NCBI RefSeq assembly: GCF_017873415.1
Contig: NZ_JAGGKD010000007.1
Coordinates: 1-64,000, forward strand
Reading direction: 5' to 3'
DNA length: 64,000 nt
Source: Methanolobus bombayensis
GTDB lineage: Archaea; Halobacteriota; Methanosarcinia; Methanosarcinales; Methanosarcinaceae
How positions within the stretch are numbered: position 1 is the stretch's first letter; each line of letters begins with the position of its first letter. The notes beneath the pieces are model-generated. The model was not told the origin of the DNA and made no database searches. It saw only the letters and a program-made list of their open reading frames with translations. Positions 7,436 through 13,704 of the stretch are shown here, one piece after another. The translations under genes and the position numbers were made by a program.

Positions 7436-7534
7436 ATGAAAGATGCGTTTAAAATAGTTCTAAGTATGCTTGTCATATCAATCATGCTTATAGGGACTGT
7501 GGGAGCTGAATCGGCAGATTCAACTCAATATTAA
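7436..7534 (+). other. signal-peptide ORF severed from the protease by an in-frame TAA
   Basis: ATG 7436 has a good ribosome site (GGAGTGA, 7423-7429) and encodes 32 residues that form a textbook signal peptide (MKDAFKIVLSMLVISIMLIG, then TVGAESA). The next codon, at 7532-7534, is TAA, and the protease frame continues from 7535 with no shift. So the natural start of the protease is here, and a single stop separates export signal from enzyme. It may be a nonsense mutation, a sequence error or a readthrough site. Confidence 0.75.
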
Positions 7535-8533
7535 TTGTTTGAAGGTGAATACTACTTACCTGATTTTAGTTCCGATTCGTTTGAATCCCTTAAAGAAGAT
7601 TCAACAGTAATTGAAACTTGTGGAACTATACCAGAGATATCAGATGACAAAGAAAAGATAGAGTGGTTATGTAATATTGACACCTGTATGCATGATTCTA
7701 AAGATGAATTGATGGCATATATGAAAGACAATGCTGGACATGTATCTGGATTTGGAATTCATTATGAAGGGTATATGTTTGTAGATATTGACAAGAATTC
7801 AATTAACAAAGTTGACCAAAAGGCCATTGATGAAATGTACAGCATAATAGAGGCAAATGCAGAGAAAAGTGGTATGAAATCTGCTCCTGTGGTTTTTAGA
7901 GAAGAAACAACATTTGAGCTTCATTCACGCACAGATTATTGGGCTAACATGATTGGCGGTATCAAAATAAACTATGATAATGAATCAGGCACAACATATA
8001 AGTCAACATTAGCATTTGCCGCAGAAGACAGTAGTGGTACACCTGGATTTGTAATATCAGGACATTCTGCTGTGACTGCAGGAGGAGTTGGCGGAGAGAT
8101 ACGTCAAGGTGGAAGAATAGTAGGCTATGTAGACTATTTGACACTTCACTTTGCAGATGCTGCCTGGGTAGAAGCAAGCAATGTACTTGATGACATCTAT
8201 TATGCAGACAATAATGTACTAAAAGACGTGACTGCTTATGGGGATACAAATGTCGGTGCTAAGGTATACATGTCAGGAATAACCACTGAAACCACAAGTG
8301 GTTATGTAATAGAGGATTATACTGCTATAAATCAATCAGGCACAGGCATCACCTTCTATGATCAATTCACAGCTGACTATGACTCCGAAGGAGGAGATAG
8401 TGGTGGCCCTGTGTTCAGGAAGACTGTCGGAGGAGTAAAGATAGTAGGCATGCACTGGGGTGGCGAAACTAGGTCTGTATTCTCTCCAGTTAGTGGTGTT
8501 ATCTTAGATTTGGGCGTTACACCATTATATTAA
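7535..8533 (+). CDS. trypsin-like (S1/streptogrisin-type) secreted serine protease, leader interrupted
   Basis: Counting from TTG 7535, residues about 13-122 are a propeptide-like unit (FESLKEDSTVIETCG to MKSAPVVF) and about 135-332 a chymotrypsin-fold protease. The catalytic triad is visible: His177 in ISGHSAVT, Asp208 in FADAAWV and Ser289 in GGDSGGPVF, with the streptogrisin-like spacing of secreted alpha-lytic-type enzymes. TTG 7535 has no ribosome site of its own; the real start is ATG 7436, cut off by TAA at 7532, so the gene may be a recent pseudogene. The catalytic body shows no other damage. The propeptide unit is also the building block of the two surface proteins downstream. A terminator follows at 8551. 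Confidence 0.8.
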   Translation: MFEGEYYLPDFSSDSFESLKEDSTVIETCGTIPEISDDKEKIEWLCNIDTCMHDSKDELMAYMKDNAGHVSGFGIHYEGYMFVDIDKNSINKVDQKAIDEMYSIIEANAEKSGMKSAPVVFREETTFELHSRTDYWANMIGGIKINYDNESGTTYKSTLAFAAEDSSGTPGFVISGHSAVTAGGVGGEIRQGGRIVGYVDYLTLHFADAAWVEASNVLDDIYYADNNVLKDVTAYGDTNVGAKVYMSGITTETTSGYVIEDYTAINQSGTGITFYDQFTADYDSEGGDSGGPVFRKTVGGVKIVGMHWGGETRSVFSPVSGVILDLGVTPLY

Positions 8534-8550
8534 ACCCCAAGTTATCTCAA

Positions 8551-8588
8551 AAATGTCAAATAGTCTTTATTTGGCATTTTCTATTTTT
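8551..8588 (+). terminator. terminator after the protease gene
   Basis: AATGTCAAAT (8552-8561) pairs with ATTTGGCATT (8569-8578, one G-U pair), followed by TTCTATTTTTT. Confidence 0.65.
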
Positions 8589-8694
8589 TAAGAATAATAA
8601 AACATATAACAAACAATATTTATTTAATGTGGTAGTAAAATACCAACGAAGGTATCTCAATGTTCACTATATTCTGTAAAAAGCTCGGAAAAAA

Positions 8695-9693
8695 ATGTAT
8701 AAAAAAACAATTCTCTTGATATTACTAGTTAATATATCACTAAATGGATGTGCAAGTGCTTCAACTGAAACATTTGAAGAATACGCCAAAGACTCTCATT
8801 TCATAACAAACAAAGGTACTTTTACGGACACAATTGACCAGGAATGGAGAAATACAATTAACAATTGTTGTACAAGTCTCCCCGATTCGTATTCTTACTA
8901 TAGATTTGATAAAGCCATAAGAACTTTTGCATGCAGTGAGTTCATAATAGTTGAGTTAAAATCTGAATACAAAGGAGAGATAAACGATTCCAGAATCGAT
9001 AAGTTGTATCAGAAAATAGAAGCTCATTGTGAAGAAAATACAGGTTTAAGTGAAGTTCCCGTTGTTTTTATGTGGGCAGAAGATGAAGAAGATATAATAT
9101 ATGAATACGATCCTGATTCATTTGAAAATGCAAAGACCAGTTCTGGATTTGTAGCTACCATGGGATCTGTCCCTGTATTTGCTAATGAGGCTGAATGGTT
9201 GGAATGGTCAGAGAAAGTTCATGAAGCCAGGCATATTAAAGAACTTGAACAGTATTTCTCATCTGGCCCTGTGATATCATGTGGTTTCAAAAAATACAGT
9301 GGATATATAGAAGTTGGGGTGAACATAGATTCACCTGAACAAGTTAATGATTCAATACTCAGTGAAATATACCAAATAATTGAGGATCATTTTGAAGAGG
9401 AAGGTATCAGTAACATTCCAGTTGTTTTTGTGTGGACTGAAATGCCTCATACTGATGAAGCCATAGATACTGAGGAACCTGACGCATATGAAGGGAACAT
9501 CAATGTTTTGGATGATGATGGAAATGTTATAACGTATACTAGGGACCAAGCTTATTTTGATGAAGAGGGAAATCTAGTAATCATTGATAACAATAACTCA
9601 CAAAACGGAGATGTGTCTTCACAATCGTCTCCGGGTTTCACTTCAGTTATGCTTGTTATGTGCATTCTTATACTGGCAAGATTTAGAAAATAA
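8695..9693 (+). CDS. surface protein of two protease-propeptide-like units, PGF-type anchor (paralogue A)
   Basis: A 332-residue secreted protein. The N-terminus (residues 1-21, ending LNGCASA) is a signal peptide with a lipobox-like L-N-G-C. Two related units follow (about 28-128 and 142-248), each ending in an IY/LYQ.IE helix and PVVF(M/V)W. The same pattern (FGF..YSGYIEVGV, then EIYQIIE, then GISNIPVVF) is the propeptide unit of the protease upstream. The acidic tail ends SSPGFTSVMLVMCILILARFRK, a PGF-CTERM-like signal (PGF, membrane span, basic end) recognised by archaeosortase-type systems. DNA 8751-9089 is identical to part of the next gene, indicating very recent duplication or conversion. 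A role as inhibitor or chaperone of the protease is inference. Confidence 0.8.
   Translation: MYKKTILLILLVNISLNGCASASTETFEEYAKDSHFITNKGTFTDTIDQEWRNTINNCCTSLPDSYSYYRFDKAIRTFACSEFIIVELKSEYKGEINDSRIDKLYQKIEAHCEENTGLSEVPVVFMWAEDEEDIIYEYDPDSFENAKTSSGFVATMGSVPVFANEAEWLEWSEKVHEARHIKELEQYFSSGPVISCGFKKYSGYIEVGVNIDSPEQVNDSILSEIYQIIEDHFEEEGISNIPVVFVWTEMPHTDEAIDTEEPDAYEGNINVLDDDGNVITYTRDQAYFDEEGNLVIIDNNNSQNGDVSSQSSPGFTSVMLVMCILILARFRK
8751..9089 (+). repeat. 339-bp perfect direct repeat, copy 1
   Basis: Identical base for base to 9775-10113. It begins just inside the mature protein sequence and stops at the end of the first propeptide-like unit, while the flanking signal peptides and second units differ. 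The offset is 1024 bases. Confidence 0.95.
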
Positions 9694-9703
9694 GAGGAAT
9701 TGC

Positions 9704-10660
9704 ATGTGTAAATGTTATAAATATGGAACATGGTTTTTGCTATCATTAGCTTTATTGTTAATGTTGGTAGGTTTTGCAAGTGCTTCAACTGAAACATTTG
9801 AAGAATACGCCAAAGACTCTCATTTCATAACAAACAAAGGTACTTTTACGGACACAATTGACCAGGAATGGAGAAATACAATTAACAATTGTTGTACAAG
9901 TCTCCCCGATTCGTATTCTTACTATAGATTTGATAAAGCCATAAGAACTTTTGCATGCAGTGAGTTCATAATAGTTGAGTTAAAATCTGAATACAAAGGA
10001 GAGATAAACGATTCCAGAATCGATAAGTTGTATCAGAAAATAGAAGCTCATTGTGAAGAAAATACAGGTTTAAGTGAAGTTCCCGTTGTTTTTATGTGGG
10101 CAGAAGATGAAGAGTACCTTAACTTTGAATACGACCCGGATGCATTTGAAAAAGCAAAAAACAGCTCAGGATTTGTAGCTTCTATGGGCCATGTTCCAGT
10201 ATTTGCTGATGAAGATGAATGGCTGGAATGGTCTGAGAAAGTTCATAAAGCTAGGCATGTATTTGAATTAGAATCCCATTTTGCTTCTCAAGATGGACCT
10301 CTTCTGTCATTCGGATTCAAAAAATACAGTGGATACATTGAAGTGGGAGTCAATAAAGAGACACCAGATAAAGTCAATGATTCATCTCTAAACGAAATAT
10401 ATCAGATAATTGACGAACACTTTGACGATGCAGGTATAAGTGATATCCCAGTCGTTTTTGTTTGGGACCTACCAGCACAAACAGAAGAGGCTCTCTTAGA
10501 GGAAATTCCTCCAACTGAAGAAGAATCTTCTCAATCAATAGAAGAATCCATTGATAACGAATCTGCTGAAAATGAAGAAGAAAGTTCACAAACCACGCCT
10601 GGTTTCACTTCAATTATGCTTATTCTTTGTTTGTTGATATTGTGCCGGTTCACTAAATAA
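9704..10660 (+). CDS. surface protein of two protease-propeptide-like units, PGF-type anchor (paralogue B)
   Basis: The start is ATG 9704 with AAGAGGAA upstream, 10 bases after paralogue A. The signal peptide (MCKCYKYGTWFLLSLALLLM, cleavage near FASA) is unrelated to that of paralogue A, with a plain Sec-type end and no lipobox. The first unit is identical to paralogue A at DNA level; the second (about 130-240) is clearly related but diverged. An acidic Glu/Ser-rich tail leads to TTPGFTSIMLILCLLILCRF, again PGF-CTERM-like. The pair is thus one duplicated surface protein with a homogenised N-terminal half and two export routes. Function unknown; see the protease entry for the shared unit. Confidence 0.8.
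   Translation: MCKCYKYGTWFLLSLALLLMLVGFASASTETFEEYAKDSHFITNKGTFTDTIDQEWRNTINNCCTSLPDSYSYYRFDKAIRTFACSEFIIVELKSEYKGEINDSRIDKLYQKIEAHCEENTGLSEVPVVFMWAEDEEYLNFEYDPDAFEKAKNSSGFVASMGHVPVFADEDEWLEWSEKVHKARHVFELESHFASQDGPLLSFGFKKYSGYIEVGVNKETPDKVNDSSLNEIYQIIDEHFDDAGISDIPVVFVWDLPAQTEEALLEEIPPTEEESSQSIEESIDNESAENEEESSQTTPGFTSIMLILCLLILCRFTK
9775..10113 (+). repeat. 339-bp perfect direct repeat, copy 2
   Basis: Second copy of 8751-9089, inside paralogue B. The first mismatches are at 9774 and 10114. Confidence 0.95.
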
Positions 10661-12707: not shown

Positions 12708-13022
12708 ATGCCGGAAAAATCCTGGTTCTTTGCTATAAAAGACGATGACCTGAAAGAAAGTAGTATGGGCTTTGCAAGGGTTAAAGGGACTCCTGTACTT
12801 CTTATCAGGAAGAATGGTACTGTATATTCCCTTTTCGGGAAATGCAAACATATGGGATGTCGTTTATCAAAAGGTACTTTCAGTGATGAATATGTGCTAA
12901 AGTGTCCGTGTCATGGTTGGGAATATGACATAAGATCCGGTGAATATCTGGGCGATAAGGATGAAGCCCTTTCAGTCTTCGAGAACAAAGTCGAAGACGG
13001 GGAAATACTTGTCCTCCTTTAA
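12708..13022 (+). CDS. Rieske [2Fe-2S] protein 1
   Basis: A 104-residue soluble Rieske ferredoxin. Cluster ligands are Cys46 and His48 in CKHMGC and Cys66 and His69 in CPCHGW. Cys51 and Cys68 are in the positions of the disulfide pair typical of high-potential Rieske proteins. There is no signal peptide or membrane anchor, so it is cytoplasmic. It is the first of three adjacent paralogues that share the scaffold (opening W-x-x-A-x-x-x-D, then LLI/VLR). With the glutaredoxin-like, FTR-type and nitroreductase genes behind it, it probably belongs to one redox operon, carrying electrons or sensing oxidants. Confidence 0.88.
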   Translation: MPEKSWFFAIKDDDLKESSMGFARVKGTPVLLIRKNGTVYSLFGKCKHMGCRLSKGTFSDEYVLKCPCHGWEYDIRSGEYLGDKDEALSVFENKVEDGEILVLL

Positions 13023-13046
13023 ACCTTGAATATACGGAGAATTCAA

Positions 13047-13352
13047 ATGACTTCATGGGTAATCGCTGCAAGCGAAAGTGATGTGAAAGAAGGTAAAATG
13101 AAGCCTGTAGAAGTAGAAGATACAAGAATCCTCCTTATTCGTATCCAGGGGGAAATATTTGCCATTGAAAATCGCTGTCCTCATATGAACTGTCCTCTCC
13201 AGGGCGGTATAATTCAGGATTATTCTATCAAGTGCCCCTGCCATAGCTGGAGCTTTGATATTCGTACAGGGTCATATGTAGCATCAGACAAGATTAAGGT
13301 TAATGTATATGAAACACAGCTAAAGGATGGAAATATATCTGTCCTGGTGTGA
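13047..13352 (+). CDS. Rieske [2Fe-2S] protein 2
   Basis: ATG 13047 with CGGAGA upstream is preferred over TTG 13026; it lies 24 bases after Rieske 1. The 101-residue product has CPHMNC and CPCHSW, giving two Cys and two His ligands plus the extra Cys pair. It is closest in layout to the flanking paralogues, so the three arose by tandem duplication. No targeting signal is visible. Confidence 0.88.
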   Translation: MTSWVIAASESDVKEGKMKPVEVEDTRILLIRIQGEIFAIENRCPHMNCPLQGGIIQDYSIKCPCHSWSFDIRTGSYVASDKIKVNVYETQLKDGNISVLV

Positions 13353-13368
13353 TAGCGGGAATATATCT

Positions 13369-13704
13369 ATGAAACAGGAAGATAACTGGATATTTGCACT
13401 CAAGACGGACGATCTTGGCAACGGTGAAAAGAAGCCTTTGTTGCTTGAAAATAATAAAGTGCTTGTTCTCAGGATCGATGGCGACTTTTTTGCAATGTCC
13501 AACAAATGTCCGCATATGGAGTGTCCTCTTTCAAAAGGAACTCTTGAACAATACGTGATCAAATGTCCCTGTCATGACTGGAGATTTGATGTACGTGAAG
13601 GCAAATTCCTTGATGCAGAAGAGATCAGGGTACCTATATACGAAACCAAAGTAATGGAAGAAAGTGTTTTTGTAAATTTGAATATGGAAGGTGCAGGTAA
13701 ATGA
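13369..13704 (+). CDS. Rieske [2Fe-2S] protein 3
   Basis: The start is ATG 13369 (MKQEDNWIFALKTDD), which aligns with the other two Rieske starts; the frame is open upstream from 13327 but that extension overlaps Rieske 2. Ligand motifs are CPHMEC and CPCHDW. The stop overlaps the start of the glutaredoxin-like gene (ATGA), so the two are translationally coupled, linking Rieske electron carriers with thiol chemistry. Confidence 0.88.
   Translation: MKQEDNWIFALKTDDLGNGEKKPLLLENNKVLVLRIDGDFFAMSNKCPHMECPLSKGTLEQYVIKCPCHDWRFDVREGKFLDAEEIRVPIYETKVMEESVFVNLNMEGAGK

Follow-up and report, generated by a model that had tools for sequence, protein, structure and literature searches.

Why should a methane-producing archaeon encode, just behind a protease gene, two surface proteins built from the very unit that precedes the catalytic domain of the protease? 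The question is raised by a 64,000-nucleotide stretch of the Methanolobus bombayensis genome (contig NZ_JAGGKD010000007.1, positions 1 to 64,000; hereafter the window), on whose forward strand a serine protease gene (7436-8533) is followed by the genes of surface protein 1 (8695-9693; list of open reading frames, unit profile) and surface protein 2 (9704-10660). We consider that the surface proteins may be anchored propeptide copies that bind the mature protease in trans and keep it in an inactive or latent state on the cell, a reading to which we give a probability of roughly 0.48, slightly short of even. We favour an anchored inhibitor or tether over a foldase and over an independent surface module.

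The preliminary description of this locus, made from the sequence, had proposed that the N-terminal unit of the protease recurs twice in each downstream protein, and this is borne out. An iterated profile locates the unit, which is about 107 residues long, once in the protease (7580-7900; profile hidden Markov model E 2e-36, and unit alignment), twice in surface protein 1 (8773-9072, E 3e-29; 9121-9432, E 1e-33) and twice in surface protein 2 (9797-10096; 10145-10462, E 4e-35). In profile-profile comparison the pro-units match the second units of the surface proteins with E 2.1e-37 (probability 99.9) and the first units with E 4e-19, and by sequence the protease unit and the surface-protein units are one domain family, within which the first units are set apart by two cysteines, C32 and C86, one of them invariant and the other nearly so. 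Surface proteins 1 and 2 have exactly the same protein sequence in their first units, and about 240 aligned DNA columns agree as well, suggesting a recent duplication or gene conversion. As to the common fold that the preliminary description anticipated, AlphaFold2 gives both modelled proteins the same helix-strand-helix-strand-strand-helix-strand order, at a mean predicted local distance difference test score of 80.4 and 86.9 and a predicted template modelling score of 0.52 and 0.63. No Pfam or NCBIfam model matches the unit in the window proteins, 23 proproteases or 29 scanned members; Pfam Pro_Al_protease is not among the families listed for the 23 proproteases at E up to 0.01, and the two-unit proteins match no Pfam inhibitor family.

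Both surface proteins have a hydrophobic N-terminal segment and a PGF-type C-terminal tail, in the first at 9631-9690 and in the second at 10598-10657 (from the tail sequence), and the genome encodes archaeosortase A (TIGR04125, E 2.2e-80), so that surface anchoring of both, as originally described, is upheld. For surface protein 2 the ATG at 9704 was chosen over the TTG at 9584 because it opens a signal peptide directly past the first gene. The PGF motif, hydrophobic stretch and basic end are those of archaeosortase A substrates (PGF-CTERM), and no curated PGF-CTERM model of NCBIfam or Pfam is listed as a match among the 29 scanned proteins. The exact PGF tail occurs in 76 of 111 non-protease unit proteins versus 0 of 66 protease frames, most of the other unit proteins having close variants by eye. 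A count of hydrophobic tails was dropped as an anchor criterion in favour of the PGF motif, since 52 of the 66 proteases pass it too, and a Heimdall-CTERM identity (8 of 29 members, best E 0.0035) was rejected as what we take to be a match to the hydrophobic tail (cf. residues 338-353). A second, weaker archaeosortase-like match in the genome (G000:C4:115023-115373, 39.7 bits) falls under the cut-off. The signal region of surface protein 1 (8695-8790) ends in a lipobox-like LNGC with a weak lipoprotein-model match (E 0.014), and this protein might, to judge from that motif, be N-terminally lipidated as well.

The catalytic domain (7934-8530) is closest by sequence and by fold to streptogrisin- and alpha-lytic-type enzymes. 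It has a chymotrypsin-like double beta-barrel (best Foldseek match 2sfa, E 1.5e-13; 5mrt by VIA-align, Z 26.8, root-mean-square deviation 1.9, 186 aligned), and its triad residues H43 and D74 and the motif G153-D154-S155-G156 (GDSG) are invariant across 24 aligned catalytic domains, with His at 8063-8065, Asp at 8156-8158 and Ser at 8399-8401. The window protein scores 20.1 bits against Pfam Trypsin, whose cut-off is 20.6, and 20.9 with its neighbours; the table of a 2008 survey gives no trypsin-family member for Methanosarcina acetivorans, M. mazei or Methanococcoides burtonii (PMC2605481). This protease group is thus easily missed. Two protease relatives (L158:5008-6243 and L161:5605-6444) carry, by eye, calcium-loop, dockerin-like C-terminal repeats in which Pfam calls no dockerin. 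The window's own genome holds a PGF protein with a cohesin domain and two units (on C4, L011), and a cohesin-dockerin anchoring route is possible.

The S1 triad and fold of the secreted protease described at this locus thus stand, but its frame is cut. Read from 7436, it runs through a 32-residue signal peptide into an in-frame TAA at 7532-7534 (together 7436-7534); beyond it, the remaining 332 residues of that frame (7535-8533, list of open reading frames), where the first start codon past the stop is a TTG, comprise unit and catalytic domain. Secretion signal and protease therefore do not share one intact frame in the window. In G060, the genome of the closest relative (locus L050), a sense codon occupies the stop position and the protease frame is single and intact. 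The ratio of nonsynonymous to synonymous substitution rates (dN/dS) against G060 is 0.07 for the remaining gene, which is still highly conserved, so that the stop either arose recently, reflects an assembly error or fails to inactivate the gene. A single intact secreted protease is encoded at 7436-8533 only if read-through occurs at the TAA or the TAA itself stems from faulty sequencing. A second copy of the locus in this genome (C4:228841-229459) is deleted down to a protease unit fused to a surface-protein tail, a catalytic-domain search of the genome found no further copy of that domain, and what is clearly intact here is the anchored copies only. Could the surface proteins, then, be functionless by-products of protease-gene duplication and decay? 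The fused remnant on C4 and the several broken proteases would suit such an origin, but orphan surface proteins, those of genomes without the protease, keep full frames and are under purifying selection (dN/dS 0.23-0.41 in six comparisons), and tandem copies are kept, so that we regard this explanation as highly improbable.

Across the Methanosarcinaceae, the neighbourhood of protease and unit protein is conserved. We took the surroundings of every listed catalytic-domain match in the family, broken ones included, as 62 protease genes or remnants, and counted as a pair any unit protein on the same strand within 700 bases downstream or 400 upstream of the protease. By this rule a unit protein adjoins 50 of the 62 (48 downstream, 2 upstream); a third upstream partner, at L165, overlaps its protease and was missed, and among the 12 partnerless proteases seven lie in one genome (G012) and one (L168) at a contig end. 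An independent catalytic-domain search found the domain in 33 of 111 family genomes, and all 33 hold at least one pair. The unit itself is broader: it is present in 72 of the 111 family genomes, at class level in 81 of 237 genomes, and in a phylum-wide sample that includes family members in 78 of 392. Outside the family, 20 of 41 chosen unit-bearing genomes hold the protease, with pairs at L213, L214, L226, L227, L228, L230, L231 and L240. At one syntenic site, marked by a CARDB protein, an FtsX-like permease, MarR and MATE (named by eye, MarR and MATE not being seen in all genomes), protease and surface proteins occur together in G000, G060 and G042, and surface proteins only in G061, G062, G063 and G059.

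On a second possibility, the unit would be no prodomain at all: it would serve protease and surface proteins alike as a common module for targeting or adhesion, with the S-layer or some other component of the surface as its binding partner. Its occurrence with the cohesin domain of L011, with HEAT repeats (one unit each in L064, L089, L093, L108 and L109, some of them beside proteases) and alone, without an anchor, in other families would fit such a module, as would the commonness of orphans. What it accounts for less well is the fixed place of the unit before the mature domain, the near-obligate neighbourhood with the protease and the repeated swapping of units among proteases and their neighbours, and for proteins that are anchored already another targeting domain would be of little use; we consider this possibility doubtful.

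The exchange of units is seen at L151, where a surface protein consists of the signal peptide and unit of the protease itself (82% identity, the next best match having 34%), followed by an anchor that replaces the catalytic domain. On a tree of 224 units there are at least 19 switches between protease units and other units, a number that weak deep branches inflate; the well-supported switches are L151 (100), L228 (97), L213/L214 with L215/L216 (99) and L107 (87). The tree was built after the removal of 17 near-identical units from 241, with 59 protease units in the set, and left out ten duplicate loci (L140-L149), L226, L230, L244, L245 and units under 85% coverage. Position, neighbourhood and repeated exchange together suggest that propeptide and surface unit have a property in common, the simplest candidate being that both bind the catalytic domain. 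We propose that the unit, which lies between signal peptide and catalytic domain, is the prodomain of a secreted alpha-lytic-type protease and would be released from it by cleavage. Given the homology, the neighbourhood and the anchor motif, copies of it appear to have become, repeatedly, stand-alone exported proteins fixed to the surface by an archaeosortase-type anchor. Such copies would bind the mature catalytic domain where its own prodomain sits, leaving the protease inactive or latent at the surface of the producer. In another protease class, nanomolar amounts of a propeptide can suffice to inhibit the cognate enzyme in trans (PMC10580911), and a steric chaperone may be a protein of its own, anchored in the membrane (PMC13381987, PMC3352829).

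Anchoring combined with binding would produce an inhibitor or tether at the surface; beside a protease that lacks the unit, an anchored copy may be the foldase. Two such proteases (L161 and L165) are present in genome G059, where they pass from signal peptide directly to mature domain, and the adjacent upstream gene is that of an anchored protein whose single unit is long. On this basis the anchored units might act generally as trans-acting foldases, helping the protease to reach its active fold and then releasing it, as a membrane-anchored lipase foldase does, and the arrangement in G059 makes this plausible. Most proteases, though, keep a unit of their own, as the 59 protease units of the tree set indicate, which would leave a second foldase redundant, and in 39 of the 72 unit-bearing family genomes there is no such protease to fold. 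For the system as a whole we regard a foldase role as unlikely; binding, inhibition and any help in folding by the surface units are inferred. A pro-less frame at L064:3967-4587 was rejected as a natural split, since no unit is seen upstream and it is more likely a decayed gene.

Several results weigh against an anchored inhibitor or tether. The same 39 of 72 family genomes, 13 of them assemblies of one or two contigs, show that the surface proteins do not need the protease; the preliminary description had named surface proteins without any S1 protease, as a rule in related genomes, as evidence against its reading, and the family genomes bear this out by half. Outside the family, in Methanomicrobiales-type genomes, the protease is often alone. 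Among 12 Protein Data Bank matches of the unit up to E 10, none is a solved prodomain or inhibitor, and a fold search with a two-unit protein returned ribosomal proteins, MIF and cation-transporter domains, all weak and none a clear match; the prodomain-like protein 4hlb reached Z 4.8, again weak and tied with unrelated folds. Since the fold searches gave no clear match, we claim no fold family for the unit, although the lack of a known prodomain in these lists excludes nothing. Nor is there any sign of pairing specificity beyond shared descent, the neighbouring unit being closer to the unit of its own protease than a swapped unit in only 18 of 30 within-genome comparisons (two of the remaining 12 are ties at two decimals). 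Covariation between catalytic domain and neighbouring unit is high (Mantel r 0.82, 0 of 2000 permutations, in 35 intact or nearly intact pairs after the broken, divergent and duplicate ones of 50 were left out) but confounded by species relatedness, and in view of this and of the within-genome result we dropped it as evidence of specific pairing. Finally, a broken protease beside an intact surface protein is not clearly commoner than the reverse, with seven cases by inspection (L012, L060, L073, L085, L088, L156 and L169) versus up to four. A crude decay test that gave 15 versus 3 was set aside, its cases including contig ends (L150, L166), divergent rather than broken genes (L092, L158, L162, L170, L175) and a frameshifted partner (L152) that it had passed, and the asymmetry is not relied on.

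How, on the favoured reading of an anchored inhibitor or tether, could orphan surface proteins persist? Genomes that lost the protease would be expected to keep the anchored copies if these shield the cell from like proteases of its neighbours. Taken further, this would make the pair a weapon with its own immunity, in which the protease is secreted against neighbouring cells, the producer's surface is shielded by anchored propeptide copies, orphans are kept immunity proteins and new immunity genes arise when an anchor takes the place of a catalytic domain. We think it rather unlikely that the system is a weapon of this kind.

Some further features of these loci deserve mention. In-frame TAG codons with conserved sequence on both sides occur in two-unit proteins of three Methanococcoides-group genomes (L244:1075-2175 and L245:977-2074 in G018 and G020, and L062:8841-9950 in G017), at a position common to two species; they fit pyrrolysine or another read-through, which leaves the TAA of the window protease unexplained. 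Five relatives (L050:4012-5121, and also L053, L054, L055 and L058) encode near the protease site a secreted protein that is, by eye, transglutaminase- or cysteine-peptidase-like; in the window no such frame is present between FtsX gene and protease. Just downstream of the MATE transporter, three tandem Rieske-type iron-sulphur proteins of about 104-125 residues, with paired Cys-His motifs by eye, lie at 12708-13704.

Taken together, the locus adds to the surface of methane-producing archaea a domain that is absent from Pfam and NCBIfam, and provides a natural series from propeptide to independent surface protein: fused, fused plus copy, split, and copy alone. Whether a secreted archaeal protease is controlled in trans can here be put directly to the test, and with the orphan copies in view methanogens may possibly compete with one another. 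A search of the literature on propeptides, archaeal serine proteases and anchoring, in which most subscription journals were out of reach, found no paper describing this arrangement by title or abstract.

Among known systems, the alpha-lytic and streptogrisin S1 proteases share with the window protease the catalytic fold, the triad and an N-terminal region ahead of the mature domain, whose start here resembles ANIVGGI; the unit holds a place equivalent to that of their pro-regions, yet without a sequence match to known ones. As far as we know, these systems do not include detached, anchored versions of the pro-region. The fungal proteins YIB2 and POIA1 are stand-alone propeptide homologues that act as subtilisin inhibitors and are not known to have a surface anchor or to be encoded beside the protease. 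In the halocin C8/HalI system, one precursor yields both the secreted agent, a peptide toxin and not a protease, and an immunity protein at the producer membrane, the two being encoded by one gene, not two. The Lif/LipH proteins serve a lipase in the Gram-negative periplasm, and this foldase is not known to be related to a propeptide of its client. Lif/LipH is a membrane-anchored partner of a secreted enzyme and is classed with protease propeptides as a steric chaperone (PMC3352829, PMC13381987). YIB2 and POIA1 are named as fungal protease inhibitors and compared with a subtilisin propeptide in PMC10580911. Like these inhibitors, although their system concerns another protease class (S8), the surface proteins described here, that of L151 included, are stand-alone homologues of the unit in the propeptide position of a protease, as far as their sequences tell. 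Propeptide-derived partners of proteases are thus known, while anchored ones encoded beside an archaeal S1 protease are, to our knowledge, new.

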